NCBI RefSeq assembly: GCF_014905115.1
Contig: NZ_CP041235.1
Span: forward strand, 1,674,001-1,738,000
Source: Sulfurimonas sediminis
Lineage (GTDB): Bacteria; Campylobacterota; Campylobacteria; Campylobacterales; Sulfurimonadaceae
Length of the DNA: 64,000 bases
Reading direction: 5' to 3'
Positions 37,277 to 62,182 of the stretch are shown here, one piece after another (the stretch's first letter is position 1; the number at the start of each line of letters is the position of its first letter). The notes beneath the pieces were generated by a model, which made no database searches, had not been told where the DNA came from, and saw only the letters and a program-made list of their open reading frames with translations. The position numbers were made by a program, and so were the translations under genes.

Positions 37277-37957
37277 TTAAAGCATCATATATCCAATACC
37301 CCGTATGGTTTTTATGTACTCTTTTGTATTTGCAGGATCAATTTTCTCTTTTAACCTTTTAACCGCAACGTTAACAGTTTTGCGGTGAATGTTTTCTGAA
37401 TCTTTCCATATATGTTTCAGCAGGTAATCTCTGTCTAAAACTCTGCCTCGATGTTGTATAAGAAGTTGCAAAAGAGCTGTTTCCTGTTTTGTCAGATTAA
37501 TATTTTGATCTTGTACAGTGAGTCTTTGTAAACTGAGGTCCAACTGCATATCTTTATACCGTAATTGTTCCACAATATTTTTTGTTTGCATGTCAGAACG
37601 TTTCAAAACTGCTTTAACACGCAGAAGAAGTTCCTCTATATCAAATGGTTTTGTCATATAATCATCACCACCTTTTAAAAACCCGTGTTTAATATCTTCT
37701 TGTGAGTTTTTAGCAGAGAGAAAAATAACAGGTATGTTAATATTTTTGTTACGAAGCATTTCAACATATAAGCTGCCTTCAATTTCAGGAAGTGATCTGT
37801 CCATCAAAATCAAATCAATTGATTCTTGCACTAAAGCTTCCCGTACATGTTTTGTATTCAAAAATCCCATAACATCATAACCGGCTGATTGCAGTGTATA
37901 CTCCAACAGCTCTAATATATCACTGTCATCATCAACAATAAGAATATGCTTTTTCAT
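37277..37957 (-). CDS. Response regulator, OmpR/PhoB family, orphan
   Basis: A 226-aa transcription factor. The receiver (1-118) has the acidic pocket in ILIVDDDSDILELLEYTL, the phospho-acceptor Asp53 in DLILMDRSLPE, and the switch Lys in DDYMTKPFDIEELLLRVK. The winged-helix domain (about 130-224) has NLTKQETALLQLLIQHRGRV, VNVAVKRLKEKIDPANTKEY and IRGIGYM. The start at 37957 has GGAG 5 bases upstream; a longer frame lacks a ribosome site. No histidine kinase is adjacent. It follows the TonB-dependent receptor by 67 bp and may be part of that operon, making it a candidate regulator of the Pho-box-like repeats upstream. Confidence 0.9.
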   Translation of the reverse strand: MKKHILIVDDDSDILELLEYTLQSAGYDVMGFLNTKHVREALVQESIDLILMDRSLPEIEGSLYVEMLRNKNINIPVIFLSAKNSQEDIKHGFLKGGDDYMTKPFDIEELLLRVKAVLKRSDMQTKNIVEQLRYKDMQLDLSLQRLTVQDQNINLTKQETALLQLLIQHRGRVLDRDYLLKHIWKDSENIHRKTVNVAVKRLKEKIDPANTKEYIKTIRGIGYMML

Positions 37958-37993
37958 AGAAGCTCCATTATTTATTTTTCTCTGCATTTAAAT

Positions 37994-38013
37994 TTTTACA
38001 TCACTCTGTAAAA
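37994..38013. repeat. Hairpin between the receptor gene and the response regulator
   Basis: TTTTACA and TGTAAAA flank a 6-base loop. It is AT-rich with only a short T-run on the minus strand, so it could be a weak terminator of the receptor transcript or an operator for the response-regulator gene. Confidence 0.4.
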
Positions 38014-38024
38014 CAAAATGATGT

Positions 38025-41000
38025 TTAATACTTATAGCTGAAGGAAAAGCTATAAAACCGGCCGGTACGGAATTTTTTGGTAACATTGGATCGGCTTCCC
38101 TGATACCAAATTGTCTCTTCGTCAAGAAGGTTCTTTAATCTTAGTCTCAGGGCAATATGGTTCTTAAATTTTTCTATCCAAACAAAATCAACAATTTGCG
38201 GAGGTACCTCATAATGGTCAGGATAACGCTCACCTGCATCAATCATACCGACTTTACGGATACGTTCACCCATTTTATTGTACGAAAGTGTTACACTTCT
38301 ATCTTTCTTTTCATAACCAACGGTTACATTCACAACAGTAGGCGAGAGCCCTTGCAACTCTCTTTTATTTGTTGTATACAGTTCTTGCTGCTGAGGCGTA
38401 AGATTGACTTCTGATTTCGTATAGGAAAAATTTCCAGAAAAATACCATCGTTTAAAAGAGTTGGCAATAAAATCAAAATTTTTTCTCCCATCAAGTTCAA
38501 TCCCATAAAGTGTTGCATAGTCTGCATTGGCATAACTGTATCTTGGCAAAGAAGAGGTGGGTAACAAAACATCCTCAATAGGTTTATCTAAATATTTGTA
38601 GAATGTACCAAAAGTTATATTCTCTGTTGATGAAAAATAGTGAGAAAATCTCAGATCATAGTTTGTTATGTCTGTATTTTTCAAATCCGGATTCCCCTTT
38701 ACTGTTGCTATGTCATAGGGATGAAAATACTCGGTATCTGTAAATTCTCTTAAATCCGGAACAATATACGTTTGTGAATAGGCAAAGTTTATCTGATTCT
38801 TTTTATCAAAAATATACTTGAATGTCATACTTGGTAAAACAGAATTGAAAGACAAGTTTTCAGGCACTTTTTCTATTGGTATAAACAGGTTGTTAAAATT
38901 TGTATACTGATAAACAGTTTGTTGAAAGTCTGTACTTCTGGCACCTATCAGGAGCTCTGTCTTCTTTGTAGGTTTTAAGAACAGGTTTGCATACGTACTC
39001 GTCTCATCAACCTCAGCATCATACCAGTACGCTGGTTGAAAAGAGATATCAAGAGAAAAATCATCAAGATATTTATTATAGATTGTATCTATATCCTCAG
39101 TTAGTCTTCCTGCATTGCTTGACTGATTCACACGATATTTGTTATAACGGGATTCTCTTGTTTTTGCACTGTTGCTCCAACCGATTTCGAGATAATCATC
39201 CTTGCTCAGAAGTTCAAATTCTGTTCTGTTTTTAAGATAAAATGCCATCAGGTCATCATTTGTTGTAAGATTTAAAAAAACATTTGGTGCATATCTGTCC
39301 AGGTAAGGATCTCCAATCTGTACACCATCCAATCCTATATTTCTAAAATAGGTATATCGGTAGTTTGAAGGCTGGTCAAGAAGGGCCTGCGTTATTTCAG
39401 CACCAAAAGAAAATTTATTTTTTAAATCAACAACACTGTAAAGCATATCTCCTGAAAATTGACTGGCAAGCAGTGTTCTTTCTTCCCAGTTTAAATCATA
39501 AGTAATTCTCCAGTCGTCATTTGATCCTGCAACACCATCTGTAATTTTCGTTACCTTTTCAGATATTTTGCTGTAAAGCTGTGTGAACTTTAAATTTAAA
39601 ACATTGGCATAACTATAATGAACATTTAAAATTGCAGAGTTTTTATACTGATCAACCGTTTTGTATACATCTCCTTCTTGATTTGGTGTTTCATAGAGTG
39701 TATCAGTTGCCTGGTTATAATTATAATTGTAATACTTCTCCTCTCTATACGTATGATCCTGACCATAAGAGTAGTTTGCAAAAACTGCAATATGCCCTCT
39801 GTTAGCAATATCTTGATTATACGCTCCTTCTATTGACACTTTTCCGCCAGGAGCTAATGTCTGTGGAGTAATATTAAAACTTCTCTGTGTAATCTGTTGC
39901 ATATACTCAGCATTATTTGCCGGATCAAAAGAGGGAACACGCTCACCTACAACAATTTTTGAATCTTTTAAAATATCAGAAGGTATAGCTCTGTACCCGT
40001 TATCATACCCAAGCCAATCAGTAGAGCTGCCTTCATAGTTTGCTACCTTTTTTCCGGTATAAGAGTTCATTTTCAGTTCTGTTGTAATTCTAAAATAGTT
40101 CTCTTTTGCCTGTTCTTTTGTTCGGATATTCACATATCCTCCGCCAAAGCTTGCCGGTATATCTGCCGTTGCACTCTTTTGCACCTGCATAGACCCAATA
40201 ACCGCTGCCGGAAATATATCCAAAGGAACCGTTCTTCTTTGCGGGTCCGGAGACGGCAGTGGCATAGAGTTCATTTCAACATTTGAGTATCTTCCTCCCA
40301 AACCACGGACATAAACATCACTTCCGTCAACTATCGTCACACCGGTAATTCGCTTTAATGCTCCGGCTGCATCACTGTCTCCTTGTCTGGCAATCTGCTC
40401 ATTGCCCACAATATTTGTAATAGCATTGGCATTTTTTTCTTCATTCATGGTTGCAGCAATACTTCCCTTTACCTGAGGCGCCAAAACAATAAATTCTTCA
40501 AGTTCCATACTTGCAGGTGTCAATTTTACAGTGACTTTATGTGTTTTGTCTTTTTTTACTCTGATGTTATTCAGGGTTTGCGCACTGTATTCTGAATGGA
40601 CTATTGAAATACTTAGATTTGTATCCGCCGGTATAGTAATACTGAAACTGCCGTTTTCATCAGTTCTTGCATCTATATCAGTACCTTTGACAAAGATTCT
40701 TGCATTTGCCACACCTTTGCCGTCTTCCTCACTGAGAACGCTTCCTTGCAAGATTGCAAAATTTTTGGCAACTATACTGTTTGTATCACCTACCGGTGTA
40801 TCAATTTCCACATAGGGTACAGCACTGTTTTCTTTAAAAGTCGCAATAAGCTGTGTATCTCGGGAATCTTTAATAGTAACAGTTTTTTTTGTATATCCGA
40901 GATTATGGTCTTGATTATCTTTGGCAAAAATCTCTATCTGATGTTTTCCTGTTTCCAAAACAATCTCTACACTTCCATCTTCATCAGTATAATATTTATA

Positions 41001-41141
41001 TTTTCCATCGACTAAAATCTCATTGTTTTCCAGTGGCATCCCGTTTAAAAAGGAAAATACGGAAGCCGAACCCGTATCTTCTGCATAAAGACTGCCTATG
41101 CTACACAGAGTTATCAGTAATATCTTAAATAACTGTTTCAT
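38025..41141 (-). CDS. TonB-dependent outer-membrane receptor with N-terminal regulatory-type domains
   Basis: A 1038-aa outer-membrane gated channel. Signal peptide 1-20; a beta domain of PEGA or similar type (about 25-105); a carboxypeptidase-regulatory-like domain (about 128-208, GVANARIFVKGTDIDARTDE); a candidate TonB box ELEEFIVLA near 213; plug (about 235-345) with VTIVDGSDVYVRGLGGRYSN and TADIPASFGGGYVNIRTKEQ; then a barrel ending KFRTGRFYSFSFSYKY. The ligand cannot be read from sequence. It directly follows the TPR gene at the end of the DUF3450-ExbB-ExbD-TonB operon, so it is presumably energised by that dedicated system. Confidence 0.92.
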   Translation of the reverse strand: MKQLFKILLITLCSIGSLYAEDTGSASVFSFLNGMPLENNEILVDGKYKYYTDEDGSVEIVLETGKHQIEIFAKDNQDHNLGYTKKTVTIKDSRDTQLIATFKENSAVPYVEIDTPVGDTNSIVAKNFAILQGSVLSEEDGKGVANARIFVKGTDIDARTDENGSFSITIPADTNLSISIVHSEYSAQTLNNIRVKKDKTHKVTVKLTPASMELEEFIVLAPQVKGSIAATMNEEKNANAITNIVGNEQIARQGDSDAAGALKRITGVTIVDGSDVYVRGLGGRYSNVEMNSMPLPSPDPQRRTVPLDIFPAAVIGSMQVQKSATADIPASFGGGYVNIRTKEQAKENYFRITTELKMNSYTGKKVANYEGSSTDWLGYDNGYRAIPSDILKDSKIVVGERVPSFDPANNAEYMQQITQRSFNITPQTLAPGGKVSIEGAYNQDIANRGHIAVFANYSYGQDHTYREEKYYNYNYNQATDTLYETPNQEGDVYKTVDQYKNSAILNVHYSYANVLNLKFTQLYSKISEKVTKITDGVAGSNDDWRITYDLNWEERTLLASQFSGDMLYSVVDLKNKFSFGAEITQALLDQPSNYRYTYFRNIGLDGVQIGDPYLDRYAPNVFLNLTTNDDLMAFYLKNRTEFELLSKDDYLEIGWSNSAKTRESRYNKYRVNQSSNAGRLTEDIDTIYNKYLDDFSLDISFQPAYWYDAEVDETSTYANLFLKPTKKTELLIGARSTDFQQTVYQYTNFNNLFIPIEKVPENLSFNSVLPSMTFKYIFDKKNQINFAYSQTYIVPDLREFTDTEYFHPYDIATVKGNPDLKNTDITNYDLRFSHYFSSTENITFGTFYKYLDKPIEDVLLPTSSLPRYSYANADYATLYGIELDGRKNFDFIANSFKRWYFSGNFSYTKSEVNLTPQQQELYTTNKRELQGLSPTVVNVTVGYEKKDRSVTLSYNKMGERIRKVGMIDAGERYPDHYEVPPQIVDFVWIEKFKNHIALRLRLKNLLDEETIWYQGSRSNVTKKFRTGRFYSFSFSYKY

Positions 41142-42422
41142 TTATAAACACTCCAGACTGTTGTTTGTACATTTTTCTATATTTTTTCTAATGATTGTTG
41201 CTTTATTAAAAAGCTCGCTGTTTGAAATATGCTTCAGCTCTTTTTCGGCATTTTTGTAATCACCTGCCATATAATACGAATAGGCAAGAGCATACCGAAG
41301 ATTATCATCATCAAGCATTTTATAACGAAGCAGCGCTTTTTTCAGTCCTATAATCTTTCTAAACTCTTGCGCATCAAGGTAAAGTGCTATTTTTTGTTTC
41401 AATTTTTCCACCTTGTCTATATTGTGCGTATTAAGATAGAGTGCATGTGTAGTTTGTCCCACACGTCTATTCATCTCCACAGCATCCTTGAGATACTTTT
41501 TGTCAAAATAAGAACTCTCTTCAAAGAGATTTGCTGTCGTAAATTTCATATCTTTTTTAAGATATAAATGCCCCAGCAAAAAACTTAATTTTGCATTTTT
41601 TGGAAATTTCAGTTTCGCATCTTCGAGTATTTCAACAGCACTGTCAATCTGGTTTGCCTCAAGAAGCATCTGTGCAAGTGCTATATACTCTTTTGGACTA
41701 CTGTTGACTTGCTGCATATACTCTTTTGCTGTTTTTATGGCGGATTGATACAATCCAAAATCAGCAAGATAGTAAAATTTTTGTTTCAGCAATACAGTAC
41801 TGCTTTTTGGAAAGAGTTTCATACCTGTACTCAATGCTTTAATGGCACTGTCATACGCTTTGGTTTTGTAATAACATTCCGCTCTCAAAGTAAAAAGCTC
41901 AGCACGGTTTTTTCCTTTTTCACCTGCATTGTCAAGACTTTTGACTGTGTTTTTGTAATCTTTAATCTTGTGATACTCTGAAGCCAGATACATGTAAAGC
42001 TGTTCTAACTTTTCCTGTCGTTTCTTTTTAGGATTAAATTCCGGTTGTCTGCTTTTTTCCTTTTCATGACTTCCTATAGAAAAAAGATACTTCTCCTGTA
42101 TTTCAACTTTCGGAGCTTTAAACTCTTTTATTTTTGTAGCTTCTATTGCCTCTCTATAAGCTTGTATTGCCTCTTTTGTTTTTCCTTCTTTAGAGTATAA
42201 AACACCCAGGACCGTATAATATTTAGCCGCATCAAAAGTTGGAGATTTTTGATTTACAATATCCAGTTCCTCATGTGCTTTTTCATATTTCCCGTCATAT
42301 ATCATTAATGTCGCAAGTGCAATATGATCAATAGAAACCGCATCATCCTTTTTGGCAATAACATGACTGCTTAAAAGCAGTGTTAGCAACAAACTCTGTA
42401 ATATTTTTGTAAACATTTGCAT
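41142..42422 (-). CDS. Periplasmic TPR protein of the TonB system
   Basis: A 426-aa protein with a signal peptide (ILQSLLLTLLLSSHVIA) and at least eight tetratricopeptide-like repeats, for example YTVLGVLYSKEGKTKEAIQA, LYMYLASEYHKIKDYKNTVK and RYALAYSYYMAGDYKNAEKE. TPR proteins lie at this position in Vibrio- and Shewanella-type TonB2 clusters and are thought to link inner-membrane TonB parts to receptors. It starts 4 bases after the tonB stop and its stop abuts the receptor's ATG, so all are one transcript. Confidence 0.85.
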   Translation of the reverse strand: MQMFTKILQSLLLTLLLSSHVIAKKDDAVSIDHIALATLMIYDGKYEKAHEELDIVNQKSPTFDAAKYYTVLGVLYSKEGKTKEAIQAYREAIEATKIKEFKAPKVEIQEKYLFSIGSHEKEKSRQPEFNPKKKRQEKLEQLYMYLASEYHKIKDYKNTVKSLDNAGEKGKNRAELFTLRAECYYKTKAYDSAIKALSTGMKLFPKSSTVLLKQKFYYLADFGLYQSAIKTAKEYMQQVNSSPKEYIALAQMLLEANQIDSAVEILEDAKLKFPKNAKLSFLLGHLYLKKDMKFTTANLFEESSYFDKKYLKDAVEMNRRVGQTTHALYLNTHNIDKVEKLKQKIALYLDAQEFRKIIGLKKALLRYKMLDDDNLRYALAYSYYMAGDYKNAEKELKHISNSELFNKATIIRKNIEKCTNNSLECL

Positions 42423-42425
42423 TCC

Positions 42426-43061
42426 CTACTGAAATCTAATTTTTTGTTTAGCCCACATTTTCACAGGCTTACCTTTATATCTAGCAGGGCTAAATCTCCA
42501 TGAGTAAACAGCATCAAGCGCTGCTTGGTCAAATATTCCGGTTGGCTGAGATTCTAAAACTTTGGCAATCTCGACATTTCCGTCTTTTCCAATAAGAATA
42601 TTAATAACCACATACCCTTTGATACCATTTTTTGCAGCATCTTCAGGATACTCCAATGGTGGTCTTGATACAATGCTTGGTTTTACATCCACCGTATTTT
42701 CATTCATAATTGTATCTTGCACAATATCTTCAAGCAGTTTATTCGCATCACCTGCGATATTGTCAGTTTGAAACTCCGGAATATCCATAGCAATACCTGC
42801 CAATGATGAGTCTAAATTTGGCAACGGTGCTTTTGGCTGCGCCTTTTTTGGCCTTGGTTTTTGTTTAGGTTTTGGTTTTTCAGGTGTTACTTTGGTTTTC
42901 ACACTTTTTATCTGTCGTATCTCTTTTTTAACAACAGGCTCTTTTTTTTCGATATTTTTGTTAAAGGAAACAACAAGCACAACCATCAAAATTCCGCCAA
43001 AGAGCATAATAAGAAGTGCTGATAAAGTTCTTCCTTTTGTTGAATATTTTTTTTCAGGCAT
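42426..43061 (-). CDS. tonB: TonB energy transducer
   Basis: A 211-aa protein with a cytoplasmic N-terminus, one membrane helix (LSALLIMLFGGILMVVLVVS), a Lys/Pro-rich periplasmic spacer (PEKPKPKQKPRPKKAQPKAP) and the C-terminal TonB domain (RPPLEYPEDAAKNGIKGYVV, FDQAALDAVYSWRFSPARYK). It passes proton-motive energy from ExbB/ExbD to the outer-membrane receptor. The ATG at 43061, 7 bases after the exbD stop, is chosen over a longer frame starting at 43130 that would overlap exbD by 62 bases. Confidence 0.93.
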   Translation of the reverse strand: MPEKKYSTKGRTLSALLIMLFGGILMVVLVVSFNKNIEKKEPVVKKEIRQIKSVKTKVTPEKPKPKQKPRPKKAQPKAPLPNLDSSLAGIAMDIPEFQTDNIAGDANKLLEDIVQDTIMNENTVDVKPSIVSRPPLEYPEDAAKNGIKGYVVINILIGKDGNVEIAKVLESQPTGIFDQAALDAVYSWRFSPARYKGKPVKMWAKQKIRFQ

Positions 43062-43068
43062 TATTTGT

Positions 43069-43473
43069 TTATCCCATCTCTTTAGTGGTAGAAACCGCGA
43101 CATCTTTAGCACCACTTTGGCGTATTTCATCTACAACATCAATAAGAACATTGACGGCAATAGTGTCATCGCTTACAACCAATACCGATTTTTCTGTTGA
43201 TGCGCGTAAAAGGTCTCTGAGTTTGCTCTGTATCGCCCATAATTTTACCGGTTGGTTATCTATATAAATTTCACTGTTATTATCTATATATACCCGTATA
43301 ACCTTTGTTGACGCAAGCGATGCTGATGCTGCTGAAGGACGGTTTAAATCTAATTTCATATCTTTTACAAACGTCGTCGTCACCATAAAAAATATAAGAA
43401 GAATAAAAACCATATCTATTAGTGGCGAAACATCAACAGTATCTACGTTTTGGCTTTTTTGTCTAAATCTCAT
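43069..43473 (-). CDS. exbD: ExbD-family proton-channel protein
   Basis: A 134-aa inner-membrane protein: short cytoplasmic start, one membrane helix with the essential Asp (DVSPLIDMVFILLIFFMVTT), then a periplasmic domain (about 45-134, IYIDNQPVKLWAIQSKLRDL). ExbD sits in the pore of the ExbB pentamer and uses the proton gradient to drive TonB. It overlaps the upstream exbB gene by 4 bases. Confidence 0.94.
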   Translation of the reverse strand: MRFRQKSQNVDTVDVSPLIDMVFILLIFFMVTTTFVKDMKLDLNRPSAASASLASTKVIRVYIDNNSEIYIDNQPVKLWAIQSKLRDLLRASTEKSVLVVSDDTIAVNVLIDVVDEIRQSGAKDVAVSTTKEMG

Positions 43474-44087
43474 TTTTCATCCTTTGTACTGAGTATGTCC
43501 ACAATTTGTTCAAATTCAAGTATGAACTGCTCTTCTTTTTTATCTAAAATTTTTCCTATAATCAAACCCGGTACGGCGACAACAAGACCAAGCTCTGTTG
43601 TAAACAAAGCTTTTGAAATACCGCCGGCAATAGAGTCTCCCTGTGAAAACATAGAGCTTGACTGCAGTGCGTCAAAAGTTTCAATCATTCCTGCAACAGT
43701 TCCCAAAAGTCCTACAAGAGGAGCCAGAATGACTATTGTTTTTACCAAAATTGAGTATTTTCCTATTAGTATTATGTATGGAAAAATCGCATCATAAATA
43801 AATGCCCGTGGCTTTTTACCAATACTTTGCGCTGTTTTATATGCTTGTATCGAATCAGCAACAACATAGTCTAAAAGACCGGAATATTTTTTTTCGCTGC
43901 CTCTTTTTTCATGTTTTTCTATAAGACGTCTTACATTGCCACGCGTCCCTCTTTTAAGAGTAAGATAGCGATAACCGATGCCGTACCACAAAAGCAGATT
44001 CAGTGCGAAAAGTACCCACATGATGATTCCACCAGAGTTCATAATATTTATGAACTGATTCCAGTAGACTAATATCTCGTTCATCAT
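43470..44087 (-). CDS. exbB: ExbB-family (MotA/TolQ/ExbB) proton-channel protein
   Basis: A 205-aa inner-membrane protein with three membrane helices: GGIIMWVLFALNLLLWYGIG, and the pair in KTIVILAPLVGLLGTVAGMI and FTTELGLVVAVPGLIIGKIL, the last two being the MotA/TolQ/ExbB signature. Its short form matches ExbB2 of TonB2-type systems. It overlaps exbD and the longer ExbB paralogue by 4 bases each. Confidence 0.93.
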   Translation of the reverse strand: MMNEILVYWNQFINIMNSGGIIMWVLFALNLLLWYGIGYRYLTLKRGTRGNVRRLIEKHEKRGSEKKYSGLLDYVVADSIQAYKTAQSIGKKPRAFIYDAIFPYIILIGKYSILVKTIVILAPLVGLLGTVAGMIETFDALQSSSMFSQGDSIAGGISKALFTTELGLVVAVPGLIIGKILDKKEEQFILEFEQIVDILSTKDEK

Positions 44088-45394
44088 TTTTCTTTATGAA
44101 CCTCATATTCATTCACGATATGCAGGGCAGCCTGTTCCATAGAATCTTTGATATTCTGTGCCCAACCACTGAGTAAATTTCCTAAAAGCAGTAACGGAAT
44201 GGCTACTATCAAACCTAACATTGTTGTAACAAGTGCCTCTGAAATACCCCCTGAGAGTAATTTTGGATCTCCCGTACCAAATTCTGTAATGATGTCAAAG
44301 GTAGCTATCATACCGGTCACTGTTCCAAGCAGTCCCAGAAGCGGTGCCACAGCAGCCAAAACCAGTACAAAGTTACCAAATCTGTCAATATGGCTTGATT
44401 CGTTTAAAATATTTTCTGTCACAATGTCTTCTATGTGGTCTCTGTCTTTGTCTATGTTTCGGAGTGTTGCTTTAATGACACGGGCCGTTGAACCTTTATA
44501 GCCTTTAATCGCTTCGAGTGCTTCTTGCGGCTTGTTATTTCGAAGCTTTTCTACGACTGTATTTGTAATTTCTTTTACATTGGAACCCGCACGTATCAAA
44601 AGTACGGTTCTGATGAGTATAAGCAGTAAACCTAAAGCACCCAGAATTAAGATGATATATCCAATCGTACCACCGCCCTTAATAGTATCTTCCAAGGTCT
44701 TTTCTTTCTTGTACTCTACATCTTTATCAAGATTTTCATAAATAAATATTTTAATATCTTTTCTTGGAGTGCCTTTTGCAAAAGCCAAAGCATCGGCACT
44801 GGCATCCTGGTTCCAAATTTTATACTCACCGTTGCCTGCCGGGGCCAAGGCACCCTTTGCTTTGTCAGTAACTCCATATGCTGCGATATTTCCAATTTTA
44901 ATGATAGTTCCATCTGTTTTTGTACCATCTGTAAGATAGAATTTTCCATTCTCTTTTTCTAAAGAAGAGAGTTGCTTATAAAGATGTGCTCCGTCTACAA
45001 AAGCCTTTCTCGTGACTTTTAGAATATCTGCATCTTTTTTGTCGTTTACTTCTATATTATACTCGTCAAGGAGTGATTTCGCTTGAATGAGTACACTTGC
45101 AATAATCTCTTTATTTGATCTTTTATCATCAAGTTTGACAGAAAGTTTTTGCATTTGATTTTCTAGGTTTTTCTCTTCCTGAGAAAGCTTCACATATCTG
45201 TTTTGCAAGTTCTGTACTTTTTGCTTTGTTGTGGCTACCTCTTTTGTTTGAAACAATTTCTCTTGGCGCAGTCTTTTTTCAAGTTCTGTTTTTTGTGCTT
45301 TTAAAAAAGTAAACTCTTTTTCGTAAGCATCTCTTAATTCATCTGCACTCAATAGTGTTGATAACAGTAAAAACAATGTAAGTAAAATTTTCAT
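44084..45394 (-). CDS. TtpC-like long ExbB paralogue
   Basis: A 436-aa protein with a signal-like N-terminus (ILLTLFLLLSTLLSA), a periplasmic coiled coil (about 20-95, LRQEKLFQTKEVATTKQKVQ), a beta region (about 140-225), then a MotA/TolQ/ExbB channel domain (about 240-430; IGYIILILGALGLLLILIRT, LAAVAPLLGLLGTVTGMIAT, ALVTTMLGLIVAIPLLLLGN). In Vibrio the equivalent TtpC is needed for TonB2 function. It begins one base after the DUF3450 gene ends and overlaps exbB by 4 bases. Confidence 0.9.
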   Translation of the reverse strand: MKILLTLFLLLSTLLSADELRDAYEKEFTFLKAQKTELEKRLRQEKLFQTKEVATTKQKVQNLQNRYVKLSQEEKNLENQMQKLSVKLDDKRSNKEIIASVLIQAKSLLDEYNIEVNDKKDADILKVTRKAFVDGAHLYKQLSSLEKENGKFYLTDGTKTDGTIIKIGNIAAYGVTDKAKGALAPAGNGEYKIWNQDASADALAFAKGTPRKDIKIFIYENLDKDVEYKKEKTLEDTIKGGGTIGYIILILGALGLLLILIRTVLLIRAGSNVKEITNTVVEKLRNNKPQEALEAIKGYKGSTARVIKATLRNIDKDRDHIEDIVTENILNESSHIDRFGNFVLVLAAVAPLLGLLGTVTGMIATFDIITEFGTGDPKLLSGGISEALVTTMLGLIVAIPLLLLGNLLSGWAQNIKDSMEQAALHIVNEYEVHKEK

Positions 45395-46171
45395 TTAGTT
45401 GCTCCCTTGTAAAACTAAAGCATTCGGTAATTCAAAGAAACCGGTTTTTATCTGTTTTTGGAGCGCATCAAACAGTGCAACTATTTTTTCTATATCTTTA
45501 GGGTCAGTTATATGTCTGTAGATATAATTATTATCTTCTTTCACAACATAGCCAACTTCATTGCTCGGCGTAGAAAAGAACAGAGCGACAGAACCGAGTT
45601 TTGCTATTTTTGCCAAAACCTGTTTTCCTTTAAAGTCAATCTGCTGTTTAAAGAGTCCTATCTCTTTTGTAATCCTGATAGTATCGTCATAGCTTGCCCA
45701 TGTAAGTGCAAGAGCCTTTTCGTTTGTTATAAGGCCCTCATTCATATCCGTTTTAATCTTGTGCAGTGCATTCACTCTTTCCTGTACCATAAAGGGAATT
45801 CCCTCTCGTATGGATTTTTCCAATAAGGCAAGTGCATCGAGAACTAAGGGTTTGAGATCTTTGTTCCCGTCAGAAGTCTTTTTGATTTTCTGTTTTATCT
45901 TTTCAAGATCATTTTCTGTCAGTTTAATCGCAGTTGCTTTTCTATTAATTTGCGCCTGCAGATCAATAATCTGCATTGACAGAGATTTCATCTCAGAGTT
46001 GTATCTCTGTTTGTTTTCTTTGATGTTGGAATAAATTCTTTCAACATCCCCTCGCAATTTAATAATTGATGTTGCAAGCTCTTCATTGGGCGTAGCAGCA
46101 GATAGTGGTACAGATAATAAAGTTGCTGATAAAGCAATTGAATAGATTATCTTCTTATGATAAAAGATCAT
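45395..46171 (-). CDS. DUF3450 periplasmic protein, first gene of the TonB operon
   Basis: A 258-aa protein with a signal peptide (IALSATLLSVPLSA), an N-terminal coiled coil (about 30-100, YNSEMKSLSMQIIDLQAQIN) and a helical body (FMVQERVNALHKIKTDMNEG, ALFFSTPSNEVGYV). These are DUF3450 features; the family commonly precedes TtpC in TonB2-type clusters. Biochemistry is unknown; it may form a periplasmic partner for the TtpC coiled coil. It is the first gene after the Pho-box-like repeat array, with a strong terminator of the preceding gene just upstream. Confidence 0.88.
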   Translation of the reverse strand: MIFYHKKIIYSIALSATLLSVPLSAATPNEELATSIIKLRGDVERIYSNIKENKQRYNSEMKSLSMQIIDLQAQINRKATAIKLTENDLEKIKQKIKKTSDGNKDLKPLVLDALALLEKSIREGIPFMVQERVNALHKIKTDMNEGLITNEKALALTWASYDDTIRITKEIGLFKQQIDFKGKQVLAKIAKLGSVALFFSTPSNEVGYVVKEDNNYIYRHITDPKDIEKIVALFDALQKQIKTGFFELPNALVLQGSN

Positions 46172-46218
46172 GTTTTCTCCGTCGTTATAATTAATTTAAG
46201 CGAAGAATATCAGAAGTA

Positions 46219-46258
46219 GGTTTTAGAAAGATTACAGGAAGATTACATAATGGTTACA
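46219..46258 (-). promoter_or_regulatory. Pho-box-like direct repeats before the DUF3450-TonB operon
   Basis: On the coding strand, TGTAACC (46258-46252), TGTAATC (46247-46241), TGTAATC (46236-46230) and a weaker TAAAACC (46225-46219) are spaced exactly 11 bases apart. Half-site TGTAAY and the 11-bp period match the TGTMAY direct repeats of PhoB boxes. A TATTCT -10 candidate lies 9-10 bases downstream (46209-46204), the distance seen in PhoB-activated promoters that lack a -35. Confidence 0.65.
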
Positions 46259-46261
46259 ATG

Positions 46262-46293
46262 AAAAACAACCAGACATTTAAATGCCTGGTTGT
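46262..46293 (-). terminator. Intrinsic terminator of the beta-helix lipoprotein gene
   Basis: ACAACCAG and CTGGTTGT (46266-46273 and 46286-46293) enclose CATTTAAATG with one A/C mismatch, giving an 18-bp near-perfect stem. On the minus strand it is followed by TTTTT. It starts 12 bases after the lipoprotein stop, so the lipoprotein gene and the DUF3450 operon are separate transcripts. Confidence 0.85.
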
Positions 46294-46304
46294 TCTCATA
46301 AAGA

Positions 46305-48455
46305 CTAGTTTAATTTGTTACCCGCACCGTTTTCAAAAACAGCTTGAAGATCAGTAGCAGAATCTCCATTGAATTTTAATGGATTGGAACCGATCAAAGA
46401 GACATTCTCAAACGATGTATTTGCTATATCTGCAGTACCTACCGAATAAATTGCAGCATATGTGGAATTAATATCATACATAACCGTACCATTTTTAAAG
46501 TGTCCGCCGATACCGTCTTTTTTGAAATAGATTGCACCCTCTTTTGCAGTATTAGCAGCCGAAGAAGCTACATAAATATCAAAGTTATCAAATGTTGCTA
46601 CAGTATTCCCTGACATTTCAATACCGGAGTTTCCTGTAGTCTGGTGAATTGTAAGGTTTGTTACCGTTCCGCTGTATCCGTCATCAATATCGAAGTGATC
46701 ATCACTACACTCAGAAACATCTACATTTGTAAGGTTGACTGTACCGCCCCAGATCTCTATACAGTCGTCATCAGATTTGTTTACTGTGATATTTTCAACA
46801 ACAGTGCCTGAACCAACACCAACCATAGACAAACCGTTCACCTCTTTATCTACTTCCATAGTAATACCGGAGTTAAGAATTTTTACATTTCTTAAAACAC
46901 CTGAATTATCAGCCAAATCTGTAGAATCCGCAGTAAAAGCAGGATTTACTTCATATGGCTGTACTTGAGAATTTCCGGCTTTACCGATAAGTGTTAAACC
47001 ACCCCATTGACCCCACTCGTCAGCACCACCGTCATAAGCAGTCTCACTCATAAATACAATAGGCTTGTCAAAAGTACCATCAGCAATAATTTTTGCACCT
47101 TTATCAATAATCATGTATGATGTAGCTGCACCTGTTCCTGATTTACCAATGATTACAGTTCCCGGCTCGATTGTAAGTGTCGCTCCGTTTGTTACCGTTA
47201 CAAGACCGTTGAGTCTCCATACTTTGTCTGCTGTTAAAGTCATATCTGCTGTAATGTCTCCTGAAAGATCCGTTTTTGCGACTGTTGCATTCAGTTTATT
47301 CGTAGTATCACTTGTAAAAACAGTCTGAAGGTCAGTTGCAGAATTTCCGGCAGGGTCTCCATTGAATTTTAATGGGTTGGAACCGATCAAAGAGACATTA
47401 GTAAAAGATGTATTTGCTATATCTGCAGTCCCTACCGAATAAATTGCAGCATATGTGGAATTAATATCATACATAACCGTACCATTTTTAAAGTGTCCGC
47501 CGATACCGTCTTTTTTGAAATAGATTGCACCCTCTTTTGCAGTATTAGCAGCCGAAGAAGCTACATAAATATCAAAGTTATCAAATGTTGCTACAGTATT
47601 CCCTGACATTTCAATACCGGAGTTTCCTGTAGTCTGGTGAATTGTAAGGTTTGTTACCGTTCCGCTGTATCCGTCATCAATATCGAAGTGATCATCACTA
47701 CACTCAGAAACATCTACATTTGTAAGGTTGACTGTACCGCCCCAGATCTCTATACAGTCGTCATCAGATTTGTTTACTGTGATATTTTCAACAACAGTGC
47801 CTGAACCAACACCAACCATAGACAAACCGTTCACCTCTTTATCTACTTCCATAGTAATACCGGAGTTAAGAATTTTTACATTTCTTAAAACACCTGAATT
47901 ATCAGCCAAATCTGTAGAATCCGCAGTAAAAGCAGGATTTACTTCATATGGCTGTACTTGAGAATTTCCGGCTTTACCGATAAGTGTTAAACCACCCCAT
48001 TGACCCCACTCGTCAGCACCACCGTCATAAGCAGTCTCACTCATAAATACAATAGGCTTGTCAAAAGTACCATCAGCAATAATTTTTGCACCTTTATCAA
48101 TAATCATGTATGATGTAGCTGCACCTGTTCCTGACTTACCAATGATTACAGTTCCCGGCTCGATTGTCAATGTCGCTCCGTTTGTTACCGTTACAAGACC
48201 GTTGAGTCTCCATACTTTGTCTGCTGTTAAAGTCATATCTGCTGTAATGTCTCCTGAAAGATCCATCTTTGTTACTGTTGCAGTGTTCGGTGTTGTTGTA
48301 TTCGCATCCGGTATTGTTGTGTCTGGAGCTGGTGTTGTTGTGTCTGGAGTTGGCGTTGTTGTATCTGTGGTACCGCCACCACCGCCACCACAACCACTAA
48401 AACCGATTGCTGTTGCTGTTACTAAACTAAGTGTTATCAATTTGAACTTGTTCAT
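46305..48455 (-). CDS. Lipoprotein with two near-identical beta-helix-like repeats
   Basis: A 716-aa protein with a lipoprotein signal (ATAIGFSGC, Cys at 22), a Gly/Thr/Pro/Asp linker (23-62) and two 331-residue modules (65-395 and 396-716). Each module has short, regularly spaced beta segments such as NGATLTIEPGTVIIGKSGTG, KAGNSQVQPYEVNPAFTADS, NDDDCIEIWGGTVNLTNVD-type and GNSGIEMSGNTVATFDNFDI, the pattern of a right-handed parallel beta-helix. Acidic pairs (SDDDCIE, SDDHFDIDD) may bind Ca2+. It is expected on the cell surface or in the periplasm. Function unknown; neighbouring TonB system and the shared repeat operator suggest a common regulon. Confidence 0.8.
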   Translation of the reverse strand: MNKFKLITLSLVTATAIGFSGCGGGGGGTTDTTTPTPDTTTPAPDTTIPDANTTTPNTATVTKMDLSGDITADMTLTADKVWRLNGLVTVTNGATLTIEPGTVIIGKSGTGAATSYMIIDKGAKIIADGTFDKPIVFMSETAYDGGADEWGQWGGLTLIGKAGNSQVQPYEVNPAFTADSTDLADNSGVLRNVKILNSGITMEVDKEVNGLSMVGVGSGTVVENITVNKSDDDCIEIWGGTVNLTNVDVSECSDDHFDIDDGYSGTVTNLTIHQTTGNSGIEMSGNTVATFDNFDIYVASSAANTAKEGAIYFKKDGIGGHFKNGTVMYDINSTYAAIYSVGTADIANTSFTNVSLIGSNPLKFNGDPAGNSATDLQTVFTSDTTNKLNATVAKTDLSGDITADMTLTADKVWRLNGLVTVTNGATLTIEPGTVIIGKSGTGAATSYMIIDKGAKIIADGTFDKPIVFMSETAYDGGADEWGQWGGLTLIGKAGNSQVQPYEVNPAFTADSTDLADNSGVLRNVKILNSGITMEVDKEVNGLSMVGVGSGTVVENITVNKSDDDCIEIWGGTVNLTNVDVSECSDDHFDIDDGYSGTVTNLTIHQTTGNSGIEMSGNTVATFDNFDIYVASSAANTAKEGAIYFKKDGIGGHFKNGTVMYDINSTYAAIYSVGTADIANTSFENVSLIGSNPLKFNGDSATDLQAVFENGAGNKLN
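46308..47270 (-). repeat. Repeat unit 2 (C-terminal) of the lipoprotein gene
   Basis: DNA copy offset by exactly 993 bp from unit 1. Long stretches, including 234 consecutive bases checked by translation, are identical; differences cluster near the unit ends (for example around 46360-46420). Confidence 0.85.
47271..48263 (-). repeat. Repeat unit 1 (N-terminal) of the lipoprotein gene
   Basis: A 993-bp unit encoding residues 65-395. Only scattered single-base differences from unit 2 are visible, for example ATT/ACT and TAAG/TCAA near 48134-48170. The near identity points to a recent duplication or ongoing gene conversion. Confidence 0.85.
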
Positions 48456-48510
48456 TGAAGAATCTCCGTAATTAAATTTATGAAATGATATACCTTCATG
48501 ATTTCAGCAA

Positions 48511-48539
48511 CATAACAATTTAGTAACGATTTGGTTACA
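48511..48539 (-). promoter_or_regulatory. Pho-box-like direct repeats before the lipoprotein gene
   Basis: On the coding strand, TGTAACC (48539-48533), CGTTACT (48528-48522) and TGTTATG (48517-48511) are spaced 11 bases apart, in the same orientation to the gene as the array before the DUF3450 operon and with the same distal TGTAACC. Matches are weaker than in the other array. The 169-bp gap up to the cytochrome gene holds nothing else I can identify. Confidence 0.5.
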
Positions 48540-49026: not shown

Positions 49027-49938
49027 TTGAATAATTTTACCTTTGAATATCCTTATGTTTTCATCCTTTTACTTTTGGTAATCTGCATATACAAATGTCC
49101 GCTTACGCTCAAAAAAATTATTTTCCCGCACATACATCTCTTTTCAAAAAAAACCTCTTTCATCAACAAGGAAAAACTGCTCTATTCTCTGATTCTCTCT
49201 TCTATGATTTTTGCACTTGCCTCACCGATTATATATGACCAAAAAAGTTCTTCAAAGCGAAAAGGAAGAGATTTGGTTTTTGCTCTTGATACCAGCGGTT
49301 CCATGGCACAAAGCGGTTTTGATCCGGACAATTCGCAAAAAAGAAAATTTGATGCACTCAAAGAGCTCTTAGCGTCATTTATATCCAAACGTTACAATGA
49401 CAATGTCGGTGTAGCAATATTTGGAAGCTATGCCTACCCTGCCATTCCTTTGAGCTATGACATGAAGAGTGTTGCATTTTTACTGGATTTTTTTGATGTG
49501 GGCATTGCAGGAGAAAGCACCGCTATTGGAGAAGGACTGGCGACAGCTCTTAAAATACTCAAAAAAGGCAAAGCAAAAGAAAAAGTGATTATTCTAGTGA
49601 CAGACGGCTATCAGAACAGTGGTGCTGTTTCTGTAAAAGAAGCAGTACAAAGAGCAAAAAAACAACATGTGAAAATTTATACCATAGGGATAGGAGACAC
49701 CTCTTCTTTTGATGCCAATCTTCTCAAACTCATAGCAAAAAATACAAGTGCAAAAATGTTTGCGGCTAAAGATGTCAAGATGCTGCAAGAGGTTTATCAG
49801 GAAATTGACAAACTCGAACCAAGTGCCATTCGGTCAAAACATTATCTTCATAAACAAAACCTCTTTATCTATCCGCTTACTTTGGCATTGCTCCTGCTGC
49901 TGTATCTCATTGCAAAACAGAAAAAGGAAGTTTTATGA
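49027..49938 (+). CDS. batA: BatA-like von Willebrand factor A protein
   Basis: A 303-aa inner-membrane protein with two N-terminal membrane segments, a von Willebrand A domain (about 83-255) with the metal site DTSGSMAQ and the second Asp-Gly in ILVTDGYQNSGA, and a C-terminal membrane helix (IYPLTLALLLLLYLIAK). The start is TTG at 49027. Bat (Bacteroides aerotolerance) proteins form a membrane complex thought to protect the envelope or act as metal-dependent chaperones with a MoxR ATPase. No moxR or DUF58 gene is adjacent here. It overlaps the next gene by 4 bases. Confidence 0.88.
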   Translation: MNNFTFEYPYVFILLLLVICIYKCPLTLKKIIFPHIHLFSKKTSFINKEKLLYSLILSSMIFALASPIIYDQKSSSKRKGRDLVFALDTSGSMAQSGFDPDNSQKRKFDALKELLASFISKRYNDNVGVAIFGSYAYPAIPLSYDMKSVAFLLDFFDVGIAGESTAIGEGLATALKILKKGKAKEKVIILVTDGYQNSGAVSVKEAVQRAKKQHVKIYTIGIGDTSSFDANLLKLIAKNTSAKMFAAKDVKMLQEVYQEIDKLEPSAIRSKHYLHKQNLFIYPLTLALLLLLYLIAKQKKEVL

Positions 49939-51506
49939 CACTTTTGTATCCCTGGGTTCTTTCTTTTGTGATTCCACTCTATTTTTACTATAAGAATGAT
50001 ATAAAAGAAACACAGCAAAAGACAAAACGGCAAAAGAACCTGCTCTACCTTTCTCTGTTATTTATGCTCTTCGCACTCAGCCGACCGGTCATTATAAACA
50101 AACCGATCGAGCAAAAATTTGATGCACAGGATTATATAATAGCCCTTGATGCATCTTTTTCAATGCAGGCGGATGATCTGAAGCCAACACGTTATGAAGT
50201 GGCAAAAAAAAATATTGCCTCTTTGCTTAGACAACTGAATCAGGATCGGTTCAGTATTTTTGCCTTCACCTCCAATGCCATGCTCATATCACCGCCGACA
50301 ACAGACAGTACCATCAGTATGATGGCCCTCAATTCTTTGGAGCCAAAATATATATTAACCAAAGGAACCTCCCTGCTCTCTTTGTTTCAAAGTATTGCCA
50401 AGACCTCCTATAAACAAAAAAATCTCATTATTTTCACTGACGGGGGCGAGGACAAAGATCTTGCCAGCCTCGTTGATATATGTAAAAAAAACACCATCAT
50501 TCCCTATATCGTTGCAACAGGTTCAACAAAAGGGACCACACTGAAAAAGAACAACAAAGCTATTTTGGACAATAACGAGAACCTGGTCATCTCAAAGACA
50601 AACCCTCTTTTAAAACCATTGGCACAGGAGTGCGGGGGAAAATATTATACATTAAACAGTACAGATACAGATATTACACAAGCAATCATAAATGATCTTC
50701 AAAAACAGGACACTGCCGTACAATCAAAAACAAAAGTACTCAGCTATCAAGAACTTTTTGTTTTTCCTCTTTCTATGGCAATATTGAGTTTTTTTCTTTC
50801 TGTGACAAAACTACACCAACTTTTTGTTTTTCTGCCTCTGCTCTTCATACCTTATCCGGTTCATGCTGCATCACTGTTTGATTTTTATCATTACAAGAAA
50901 GCAAAAGAGGCATATCAACAAAAGAACTATACAGCAGCTGCACAGGAGTTTCTCAAACTCTCTCCCTCCGTAGAGAGCTACTACAACAGTGCGGTCGCGT
51001 ATTGCAAAGCAAAAAACTACAAAAAAGCTGTTGCCCTTTTTTCACAGATTCACTCTCCTAATCCAAAGCTCAAACAAAACATTTTTTACAATCTCGGAAA
51101 CTGTGCAGTTGCCTTAAAAAAATACAGCAGAGCTAAGCAATATTATCAAAAATCATTGGCGCTTGGATTCGACAAAGATACTTTTGACAATCTTATGCTT
51201 TTATACAAACTAGGCCTGCAGGATGAAAAAAAACTCGCACAGATGCTTCCAAAAAACAGCAAACAGCAAAAAGAGCAGCCAAAACAGAAACAGACACAGA
51301 AAAAAAATACAAATCAAAGCAGTGCATCAAATTCTCAGCAAAAAGCTTCTCAAAAAAGCAGTGGCAGTGGAAAAAACAGCAAAAAGAAAAGGGAGAACCA
51401 AAATCTTCTCCATGTAAAGAAGAAAAACAAATCAAAATACAAGCTGGGATACAGAGCTTATGAACTAATAAACAAAGGATATACAAATGAAAAACACCCT
51501 TGGTAA
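49935..51506 (+). CDS. BatB-BatC fusion: VWA domain plus TPR
   Basis: A 523-aa protein combining two proteins that are separate in many Bat clusters. Residues 1-300 are BatB-like: membrane helices at both ends and a von Willebrand A domain with DASFSMQADD and IFTDGGEDKD. Residues 320-420 are BatC-like TPRs (YHYKKAKEAYQQKNYTAAAQ, IFYNLGNCAVALKKYSRAKQ). The tail (about 435-500) is a Lys/Gln/Ser-rich low-complexity stretch, as in BatC. It overlaps batA by 4 and batD by 20 bases. Confidence 0.85.
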   Translation: MTLLYPWVLSFVIPLYFYYKNDIKETQQKTKRQKNLLYLSLLFMLFALSRPVIINKPIEQKFDAQDYIIALDASFSMQADDLKPTRYEVAKKNIASLLRQLNQDRFSIFAFTSNAMLISPPTTDSTISMMALNSLEPKYILTKGTSLLSLFQSIAKTSYKQKNLIIFTDGGEDKDLASLVDICKKNTIIPYIVATGSTKGTTLKKNNKAILDNNENLVISKTNPLLKPLAQECGGKYYTLNSTDTDITQAIINDLQKQDTAVQSKTKVLSYQELFVFPLSMAILSFFLSVTKLHQLFVFLPLLFIPYPVHAASLFDFYHYKKAKEAYQQKNYTAAAQEFLKLSPSVESYYNSAVAYCKAKNYKKAVALFSQIHSPNPKLKQNIFYNLGNCAVALKKYSRAKQYYQKSLALGFDKDTFDNLMLLYKLGLQDEKKLAQMLPKNSKQQKEQPKQKQTQKKNTNQSSASNSQQKASQKSSGSGKNSKKKRENQNLLHVKKKNKSKYKLGYRAYELINKGYTNEKHPW

Positions 51507-52638
51507 GATATTTTTGCTTTTTATACTTTTTGCCGTCTCACTTTTTGGTGCAGGCCAGTTGGCAACCTACAAACTTACAACCAATAAAAAAAGTGTCCAT
51601 ATCAAAGAACCTCTCCTCATTACCTTTGAGGCGGAGCAAAAAAACCACACTGATCATATGTTCTTTTCCTTTAATGTGCAAAAAAGCCCTGACTATGAAG
51701 TAAAACTTTTACAAAAAAGTATACAGGACAAAGGCTACCACAACACGAAGACAACCTTTAAGTTTGTTCTTTTTCCCCTCAAGGCAAAAACACTTCATAT
51801 AAATTTTGATTTTATTATTCGTACCGCCAGTGACAAAGCTGTCAAGCAAAGTTACGTGGATGATCATGATGACAGTATAGCCATCAGCACCTATGATACA
51901 AAAATAGCACTCAAACCTTTAACACTCAAGGTGGAAAAATTTAAAAAACATGTTGACCTGGTAGGAGACTTTAAAATCAGCTCTGCAATTGACACCAATG
52001 AAATTGAGCAGTACGGGATTGTCAATCTGCATTATATACTCTCCGGTACCGGTTACAAAGAAACAGCGTTGAATATCCTCAAAACACAGATTGAAAATGT
52101 AAGCATATTTTCAAAAAGAAAAGACAAACTTTCCAGGCTTACGGAAAATGGGTATATTATCAATACAGAGTATATATATGCCCTCAGCGCAGCAGATGAT
52201 TTTACAATCCCCTCTTTTGCGTTAGAAGTTTATTCCCCTCGCAAAAACAGCTATTACACCCTCCACACAAAAGCATATAAAGTCAAAGTAAAAAAAATCG
52301 ATCCTGCACTCTTGTTAGACAAAACAAATGCACCAAAAAAAGAAACCTGGATAAATTTTACGCAGATTAAAACTTTTTTCATATACATACTGCTCTTTTT
52401 AAGCGGATTTCTTACTGCAAAGTTCACTCAAAAAAACTTTTTTTCAAAAAAACAAAAGGAAGAATTTGAAGATATTAAAGAAGCTAAAACAGCCAAAGAA
52501 CTGCTGTTGCTTTTAATTATGCAGTATCCGGGCAAGGGAATGGATGAATATATTGCGAATCTTGAAGAAAATATTCATCAGAAGCATCCCCTTAATCTCA
52601 GCAAAATAAAAAAAGAGATACTCAAAAAACTTAGGTAA
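51487..52638 (+). CDS. batD: BatD-like oxygen-tolerance protein
   Basis: A 383-aa protein with a signal peptide (FLLFILFAVSLFGAGQLATY), a large beta-rich periplasmic region (about 25-290, with QYGIVNLHYILSGTGYKETA), one membrane helix (FFIYILLFLSGFLTAKFTQ) and a cytoplasmic helical tail. Length, layout and position after BatA/B/C identify BatD, though the sequence is divergent. It overlaps the unknown 152-aa gene on the other strand by 8 bases at its 3' end. Confidence 0.78.
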   Translation: MKNTLGKIFLLFILFAVSLFGAGQLATYKLTTNKKSVHIKEPLLITFEAEQKNHTDHMFFSFNVQKSPDYEVKLLQKSIQDKGYHNTKTTFKFVLFPLKAKTLHINFDFIIRTASDKAVKQSYVDDHDDSIAISTYDTKIALKPLTLKVEKFKKHVDLVGDFKISSAIDTNEIEQYGIVNLHYILSGTGYKETALNILKTQIENVSIFSKRKDKLSRLTENGYIINTEYIYALSAADDFTIPSFALEVYSPRKNSYYTLHTKAYKVKVKKIDPALLLDKTNAPKKETWINFTQIKTFFIYILLFLSGFLTAKFTQKNFFSKKQKEEFEDIKEAKTAKELLLLLIMQYPGKGMDEYIANLEENIHQKHPLNLSKIKKEILKKLR

Positions 52639-61748: not shown

Positions 61749-62182
61749 TACTTCTTCACTCTCTTTTGGTTTGTATTAAATTCTTTTTGCACTATCTCTA
61801 ATGCCTGTAAAAACACATCTTTTTTTGCATATCCTAAAAGTGGCTGAAACATGGGGTCACCGTTTGGTAACAAAAACCATATTCCCGGAAGCCCCGGAGT
61901 ATTTTGTGCCAGGACAGCCGGAATATAATCTCTTTTGTCCGTCCATGAACGTACAGCAATAAAATTTTTATTTATCTTCTGCACAACTTTTTCATCTTTA
62001 AGTGTTGTTTTATCAAGGAGCAGACAATATTTACAAGAGTGACTTGAAATAATAAAAAGCACAGGCTTATGCTCTTTTTGTGCCTGAGCCATCCCCTCTT
62101 GATAATCTTTTGCCCAGTGTATCTCATCAGCCATCAAAGATGTTGTAAGTACAAATGCCAGTACCAATAATAATTTACCCAT
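61748..62182 (-). CDS. Periplasmic thioredoxin-like protein (SoxW-like)
   Basis: A 144-aa protein with a signal peptide (LLLVLAFVLTTSLMA) and a compact thioredoxin fold: KPVLFIISSHSCKYCLLLDK carries the CKYC active site, and NTPGLPGIWFLLPNGDPMFQ the proline loop. It belongs to the Thioredoxin_7/SoxW-like set that acts on disulfides in the periplasm. It overlaps aroK by 8 bases and hisD by 1, so it is expressed with amino-acid synthesis genes without an obvious functional link. Confidence 0.82.
   Translation of the reverse strand: MGKLLLVLAFVLTTSLMADEIHWAKDYQEGMAQAQKEHKPVLFIISSHSCKYCLLLDKTTLKDEKVVQKINKNFIAVRSWTDKRDYIPAVLAQNTPGLPGIWFLLPNGDPMFQPLLGYAKKDVFLQALEIVQKEFNTNQKRVKK

Follow-up and report, generated by a model that had tools for sequence, protein, structure and literature searches.

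A TonB gene cluster that is flanked on one side by the gene of a beta-helix lipoprotein and on the other by that of a PhoB-like response regulator raises the question of what it brings into the cell and which signal switches it on. This cluster lies in a 64,000-nucleotide stretch of the Sulfurimonas sediminis genome (C1:1674001-1738000 of a single-contig 2.32-Mb genome), hereafter the window. Its operon encodes DUF3450, TtpC-type, ExbB, ExbD, TonB and TPR proteins and ends with a large TonB-dependent receptor. We consider it probable that the cluster is a phosphate-starvation-induced, TonB-energised outer-membrane uptake module. As judged from the sequence, phosphate control is very likely, TonB-driven uptake is likely from the families involved, and the cargo is likely to bear phosphorus, as orthophosphate or else in organic or polymeric form.

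The signal can be read from the DNA ahead of the two predicted transcripts. The preliminary description of this locus had reported 11-bp TGTAAY-type repeats before both, and a pattern scan for three TGTWAY units with 11-bp spacing, accompanied by shuffles, located one element before each:

46231..46258, minus strand: perfect PhoB-type triple repeat TGTAACCATTATGTAATCTTCCTGTAAT before the TonB operon
48512..48539, minus strand: PhoB-type triple repeat TGTAACCAAATCGTTACTAAATTGTTAT before the lipoprotein gene

When the bases of either 240-bp upstream region were shuffled 500 times, no shuffle scored as high, which bears out the earlier observation. The operon's repeat is the sole perfect triple in the genome. 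Three triples with one mismatch exist genome-wide, namely that of the lipoprotein gene, that of a porin-like gene that diverges from pstS in the pst locus, and one within a coding region. According to Pfam, the pst locus itself (pstS-pstC-pstA-pstB-phoU-phoR) is situated elsewhere in the genome, at 1980347-1986086. Triples with two mismatches precede pstS, pstC and an acyltransferase gene close by; only their position counts for them, because such triples are equally frequent in the control (22 in total vs 19 for the reversed pattern).

One-mismatch doubles are also about as common as in the reversed-pattern control (40 vs 36), and with counts this close the naming of further regulon members from lists of mismatched boxes was dropped. 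One such double in the window (61855-61872) falls within a thioredoxin-like ORF (open reading frame; 61748-62182), and the genome-wide frequency of such matches is that of chance. The label OprP for the porin-like protein of the pst locus was likewise abandoned, as Pfam gave no family for this protein nor for a relative; a different pst-side porin from a relative belongs to Porin_5. The acyltransferase gene beside the pst locus (G000:C1:1989682-1991394, L024), where G000 is the genome of the window, encodes a fused acyltransferase-GNAT protein, which resembles an ornithine-lipid synthase, an enzyme of phosphate-sparing lipid remodelling.

The repeats recur in related genomes. A protein search with DUF3450 over 397 genomes of the class matched 33, of which 20 were strong (E <=1e-45, own genome included) and 13 weak (E 8e-7 to 7e-4). 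Upstream regions were scored by the best triple found within the 240 bp surrounding each start, with a threshold of 13.5 and with the window included. This score was reached by 19 of 22 DUF3450 regions (15/18 without stretches fetched twice), by 17 of 23 lipoprotein regions (14/18 likewise), and in relatives by ten of 12 pstS and all eight pstC regions. Among other genes only 20 of 339 reached it, several of the high-scoring ones being porin-like and located at pst loci, and the TtpC, ExbB, ExbD, TonB, TPR and receptor genes never did (0 of 19-22 each). The corresponding rank p-values of about 3e-12 (DUF3450) and 9e-12 (lipoprotein) are a guide only, as the relatives share a history and are not independent. 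In per-locus shuffles, at most 9 of 200 were as good in 17/20 DUF3450 and 14/18 lipoprotein regions.

The negative control consisted of nine weak-match loci, out of ten tried, in which the DUF3450 gene was located; the weak matches G273, G391, G117 and G292 were left out. All nine of these weakly related DUF3450 operons of the same class lacked a box (135 or more of 500 shuffles scored equally well), and the one that was fetched at length (G343) turned out to be a different cluster. The preliminary description had set beforehand that the repeats should be conserved upstream of orthologous operons, and most DUF3450 and lipoprotein regions indeed carry them.

The genes themselves stay together. 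The DUF3450, TtpC, ExbB, ExbD, TonB and TPR genes are present in all 19 strong relatives (a contig end cuts the TPR gene of G332), the receptor is on the same contig in 18/19, and the regulator is adjacent in 15/19, including G332, in which it is on a different contig next to a receptor gene, and G239, in which it has a split frame. The lipoprotein gene is directly upstream in 16/19, downstream of the receptor in one (G060) and past the contig end in two; the consistent separation of lipoprotein and TonB operon that was named earlier as a counter-indication is therefore not what relatives display. Of the 397 genomes, 19 have the lipoprotein domain, all of them within the 20 genomes with a strong DUF3450. 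In the one strong-set genome without a match, G196, a contig end interrupts the locus, and in G357 only a fragment of the domain is present, on a different contig. In G372:C3 (L084; 1051-2406) a broken lipoprotein frame runs in frame into DUF3450, an apparent deletion or frameshift, or an assembly error.

The fetched stretch around the cluster includes one or more pst genes in nine of the 19 relatives; for G357 this is only a PstS-like protein (43% identity). No pst genes were seen in the fetched stretches of the other ten, some of which are limited by contig ends. The order in G326 is receptor-regulator-porin-pstSCAB-phoU-phoR, and in G365 a PHO4-family permease, PhoB and pst genes accompany the cluster. 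The earlier reading of the locus as a self-contained uptake system under phosphate limitation thus holds in its phosphate part, given the conserved repeats, the lipoprotein linkage and the pst neighbourhood. The word self-contained is too strong, as the window's genome has its pst locus in another place, and this presumably handles the steps within the cell.

The genes of the cluster, called from the ORF list with families assigned by Pfam and NCBIfam profile searches, are as follows:

46305..48455, minus strand: beta-helix lipoprotein (ElpS/FI-like), 716 aa, upstream of the DUF3450 operon
46262..46296, minus strand: terminator-like hairpin with T-run separating the lipoprotein gene from the operon (fold)
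45395..46171, minus strand: DUF3450 protein (TtpB type), 258 aa
44084..45394, minus strand: ExbB-like protein with a long N-terminal part (TtpC type), 436 aa
43470..44087, minus strand: ExbB/TolQ-family protein, 205 aa
43069..43473, minus strand: ExbD, 134 aa
42426..43130, minus strand: TonB, 234 aa
41142..42422, minus strand: TPR protein (TtpD type), 426 aa
38025..41141, minus strand: TonB-dependent receptor, 1038 aa, with a CarboxypepD_reg-like domain, plug and barrel
37277..37987, minus strand: PhoB-paralogue response regulator with no adjacent kinase (ORF, Pfam, NCBIfam, tree)

ORFs and Pfam agree with the tight array from DUF3450 to receptor, followed by the regulator, that had been noted before. 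Its genes are separated by gaps or overlaps of 0-3 bp, except that the TonB gene as called overlaps by 62 bp and may truly start later. The receptor-to-regulator gap is 37 bp, and for the regulator the in-frame ATG at 37957, the start chosen originally, is as plausible as 37987. The only NCBIfam match of the receptor, TIGR01782, is under that model's cut-off. The order is that of TtpB/C/D-type systems, with DUF3450 first, a second, long ExbB-like protein, ExbB-ExbD-TonB, and TPR after tonB. Because the hairpin with its T-run (-21.4 kcal/mol in a 75-base fold) sits between lipoprotein and operon, it is reasonable to regard them as two transcripts, and the lipoprotein gene would have the terminator of its own that a separate transcript, as described previously, calls for. 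The genome has one DUF3450 gene and three ExbD genes; therefore the TonB set of the cluster is one of several, and it is probably dedicated. Further along the window, plus-strand genes at 49027-52638 resemble a BatA/BatB/BatD-type von Willebrand (aerotolerance) operon.

The regulator had been described as an orphan PhoB-like protein with no kinase. The family and the missing adjacent kinase stand; a tree and a second PhoB-like protein of the genome (C1:600635-601315) refine this to a paralogue that is not the main PhoB. The two best-scoring NCBIfam families of the window regulator are PhoB models, both under cut-off, and it fails the PhoB equivalog test (TIGR02154, 173.6 bits vs a cut-off of 296.2). 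A PhoB directly adjoins phoR in 17 of 30 genomes searched and is 49-54% identical to the window regulator. In the tree, ten cluster regulators, the window's among them, form one clade (support 100/99) apart from the phoR-adjacent PhoBs; long-branch warnings concern other rows, and over the whole set well-supported branches force at least two label changes. We also considered the window regulator as the missing PhoB of this genome, whose pst-phoU-phoR genes have no adjacent regulator, and rejected this, as the protein at C1:600635-601315 groups with the relatives' phoR-adjacent PhoBs while not standing beside phoR itself. A second PhoB-like protein occurs in 16/20 cluster genomes vs 0/10 same-genus genomes without the cluster (Fisher p 3e-5), counted at E <=1e-50, a threshold set after the list was seen; the ten contrast genomes were hand-picked from 20 listed same-genus cluster-less genomes before the phosphatase searches. 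The best description of the regulator is a second PhoB accompanying the cluster. At L022:18196-19566, two tandem PhoB-like regulators follow the receptor, one like the cluster paralogue and one like the main PhoB.

Both this clade and this co-occurrence could also be expected if the cluster regulator, not PhoB, were in control and answered to an unrelated signal, with the likeness to Pho boxes stemming only from PhoB paralogy. We regard this as very unlikely. In an alignment, 14 of 16 residues of the recognition-helix region are shared by the window regulator and the genome's other PhoB, the pstS and pstC genes of relatives have the same boxes, and 4/20 cluster genomes do without the paralogue. 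By inspection, the Asp of the receiver domain is kept at its usual place, and the cluster regulator is probably phosphorylated by PhoR.

The lipoprotein is duplicated, as stated in the preliminary description. It comprises two copies of a domain of ~325 residues (938/966 aligned DNA bases identical), which a DNA self-alignment places at:

47271..48263, minus strand: first beta-helix domain copy
46305..47270, minus strand: second beta-helix domain copy, near-identical in DNA

By inspection, it contains a lipobox-like GFSGC, followed by a Thr/Pro linker. All Pfam matches are weak and under cut-off, with Beta_helix the best; the predicted beta-helix fold draws on these and on one Flavobacterium relative, for which a pectin-lyase-type fold class is listed. 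The lipoproteins of relatives have one to three domain copies. In 37 copies cut by hand from Campylobacterota, Alpha- and Gammaproteobacteria and aligned, D168, D169, E172, D190, D191, D194 and E143 (domain numbering) are invariant, including the motifs DDxxE and DDxxD. The 22-residue offset of these acidic motifs fits neighbouring coils of a beta-helix and suggests a metal site. Additional beta-helix domains occur away from the cluster at G327:C19:51805-52512 and G295:C17:21479-22114.

Similar gene sets exist outside the phylum. A protein search of plasmid records with the lipoprotein gave 21 records with a homologue, of which ten were opened; a TonB receptor adjoins the homologue in nine, the exception being Marinobacter. 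Alteromonas plasmid pBGP9 (NZ_OX359244.1) reads phoB-phoR-phosphate binding protein-oxygenase-lipoprotein-receptor-DUF3450-ExbB-ExbB-ExbD-TonB-TPR. It thus has the full composition of the window cluster, beside phoBR, but lipoprotein and receptor come first and the receptor is only 29% identical. Good boxes (1-3 of 500 shuffles as good) stand before the lipoprotein genes of Sphingomonas and Pseudoalteromonas and before the Alteromonas DUF3450 and phoB genes (1/500 each). In three Pseudoalteromonas records, energiser genes are followed by lipoprotein and receptor; the first record lists no DUF3450 gene, and the other two annotate the gene at the place of TPR only as hypothetical. Hence, the composition, of which the preliminary description knew no account in Campylobacterota, is found whole on the Alteromonas plasmid and nearly so in Pseudoalteromonas and is not peculiar to that phylum; no description of it for Campylobacterota was found in open-licence papers of PubMed Central (PMC).

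Indioceanicola and Sphingomonas have homologues at 30-38% identity in the order lipoprotein-receptor-type II secretion system (T2SS), the layout of Caulobacter CC0170 (ElpS)-CC0171-gsp (PMC2996285). ElpS and the TonB receptor CC0171 are linked to low phosphate in Caulobacter (PMC2996285), where PhoB controls several TonB receptors (PMC11208175). The window cluster shares a predicted surface lipoprotein, the TonB-dependent receptor encoded with it and a probable phosphate-starvation link. It differs in that energiser genes are in the operon, the receptor closing it ~5 kb downstream, in that both transcripts carry Pho-type boxes whereas CC0171 is reported as not phosphate-dependent, and in that no T2SS genes are found among the flanking ORFs (34-52 kb, by inspection; no profile search). 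In Flavobacterium, lipoproteins 31-36% identical to the one from Caulobacter are strongly induced by phosphate depletion together with a TonB-dependent transporter (TBDT), and one such pair lies within the phoBR operon (PMC8115612). These pairs (FI/FII/FIII with the TBDT of PUSIII/PUSIV) also combine a phosphate-induced receptor with a related lipoprotein; they belong to another phylum, and available excerpts of PMC8115612 do not mention a dedicated TtpB/C/D energiser. By sequence and context the window pair appears to match ElpS/CC0171 and FI-FIII/TBDT, and the family link is good but indirect, because the comparison was made through homologues in an ElpS-type context and not with ElpS itself.

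Phosphatases were compared between genomes with and without the cluster. PhoX-family proteins occur in 19/20 of the former vs 0/10 of the chosen cluster-less genomes (p 4e-7), and within the genus in 7/8 vs 0/10 (p 3e-4); the matches are partial (~235-390 of 515 positions) and above the Pfam cut-off. PhoD was found in 7/20 vs 0/10 (p 0.06) and PhoA in none of the 30 genomes searched. Upstream of three PhoX genes that were scored, one region is box-like (2/300 shuffles as good) and two are not (51 and 54 of 300). The association fits a phosphorus-scavenging lifestyle and does not imply that the receptor feeds PhoX. A tentative alternative is that the cluster serves PhoB-regulated scavenging of organophosphates or polymers, in which the lipoprotein would bind or cleave a phosphate-bearing polymer (polysaccharide, nucleic acid or phytate-like) and the receptor would import fragments for PhoX-type phosphatases. 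Besides the PhoX distribution, it could draw on the invariant DDxxE and DDxxD motifs, on the polygalacturonase-like models of the Flavobacterium relatives (PMC8115612) and on the increase in secreted phosphatase activity upon ElpS overproduction (PMC2996285). Set against it, the lipoprotein has no hydrolase domain above the Pfam cut-off, a sequence search of solved structures returned no match for lipoprotein or receptor, and the phosphatase link fails in the window's own genome, where the receptor cannot feed PhoX, PhoD or PhoA because all three are absent.

PhoX needs metal cofactors, and supplying them is one way in which an iron or other-metal TonB2 uptake system could be merely co-regulated with phosphate starvation. 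Known TonB2 systems of the DUF3450 type do import siderophores (PMC6957404). The Vibrio TonB2 system, which is transcribed from a Fur-box promoter and imports siderophores, requires TtpB2 and TtpD2 for uptake, and TonB3, for which no iron substrate has been found, also carries a receptor gene (PMC6957404). Both have the same six genes TtpB-TtpC-ExbB-ExbD-TonB-TtpD, with DUF3450 first and TPR last. The window cluster differs from TonB2 in its Pho-type boxes, in the pst linkage of its relatives and in its beta-helix lipoprotein. With nine of 19 relatives having the cluster beside pst genes, a lipoprotein pair that published work links to phosphate in two other phyla, and no PhoX in the window's genome, we consider metal uptake unlikely.

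The mechanism that we favour is the following. At low phosphate, phosphorylated PhoB and/or the PhoB paralogue of the cluster, cross-phosphorylated by PhoR, would bind the triple repeats and switch on two transcripts. One would supply the beta-helix lipoprotein, which would be anchored at the surface and capture a ligand that bears phosphorus, probably via the conserved acidic (metal-type) site. The other would supply the receptor that admits the ligand, together with a dedicated TonB2-type motor (TtpB/DUF3450, TtpC, ExbB, ExbD, TonB and TtpD/TPR) driving uptake by proton-motive force, and phosphate would then enter the cell through Pst. Of this picture, gene content, repeats, their conservation, the co-occurrence and the pst linkage come directly from the sequences, whereas PhoB binding, induction, the surface location, the ligand and the direction of transport are deduced. 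A bolder version is possible, but we hold it with less than even confidence: the lipoprotein would be a SusD-like surface receptor whose metal-bridged acidic ladder captures a phosphate-bearing ligand and passes it to the receptor, the system would have its own TtpB/C/D-TonB motor and be tuned by the kinase-less PhoB paralogue, and the recurrence of this module among Campylobacterota and marine Gammaproteobacteria, and in reduced form among Alphaproteobacteria and Bacteroidota, would make phosphorus, not iron, the cargo carried by an entire branch of DUF3450-type TonB systems. The lipoprotein has no match to the SusD family in Pfam and does not classify as part of a SusCD/PusCD pair.

Several observations weigh against a phosphate-starvation uptake module. 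The pstS, pstC and acyltransferase triples have two mismatches each, level with a near-chance genome-wide count, and the upstream region of the regulator itself lacks a box in this genome (456/500 shuffles as good). Among relatives, 3/20 DUF3450 and 4/18 lipoprotein regions have no convincing box, some of their starts being uncertain or truncated. Outside the phylum the picture is mixed, with no box before the Alteromonas phosphate-binding-protein gene (379/500) or the Indioceanicola lipoprotein (424/500) and only a marginal one before the Alteromonas lipoprotein (16/500). CC0171 is reported to be expressed whether the medium is rich or poor, and a strain deleted for it still produced ElpS (PMC2996285). 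The window's genome is the sole cluster genome that lacks PhoX, besides being without PhoD and PhoA, and the lipoprotein has acidic invariant residues, whereas basic ones would be expected of a direct phosphate binder. Finally, the close sister genome G129, whose pst proteins are 86-95% identical to those of G000, does not have the cluster, which must therefore be dispensable and, by this comparison, has been recently gained or lost.

All parts of the cluster are known. A search of open-licence PMC papers found no description of a phosphate locus that unites a TtpB/C/D TonB set with an ElpS-type pair and a private PhoB paralogue; marine Gammaproteobacteria have similar unions without the private paralogue. 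Iron uptake is the role known for DUF3450-type TonB systems (PMC6957404), and the boxes, the pst linkage and the co-occurrence tie this branch to the phosphate regulon, which makes its cargo directly testable. If the phosphate-starvation module is real, a TonB group best known for iron would be linked to phosphorus nutrition. The ElpS/FI lipoproteins would gain a role as well; one of them, which has no known function, showed the strongest transcript induction and the highest abundance among secreted proteins when Flavobacterium was starved of phosphate (PMC8115612). Moreover, such a module would show how chemolithotrophic Campylobacterota handle phosphorus shortage.

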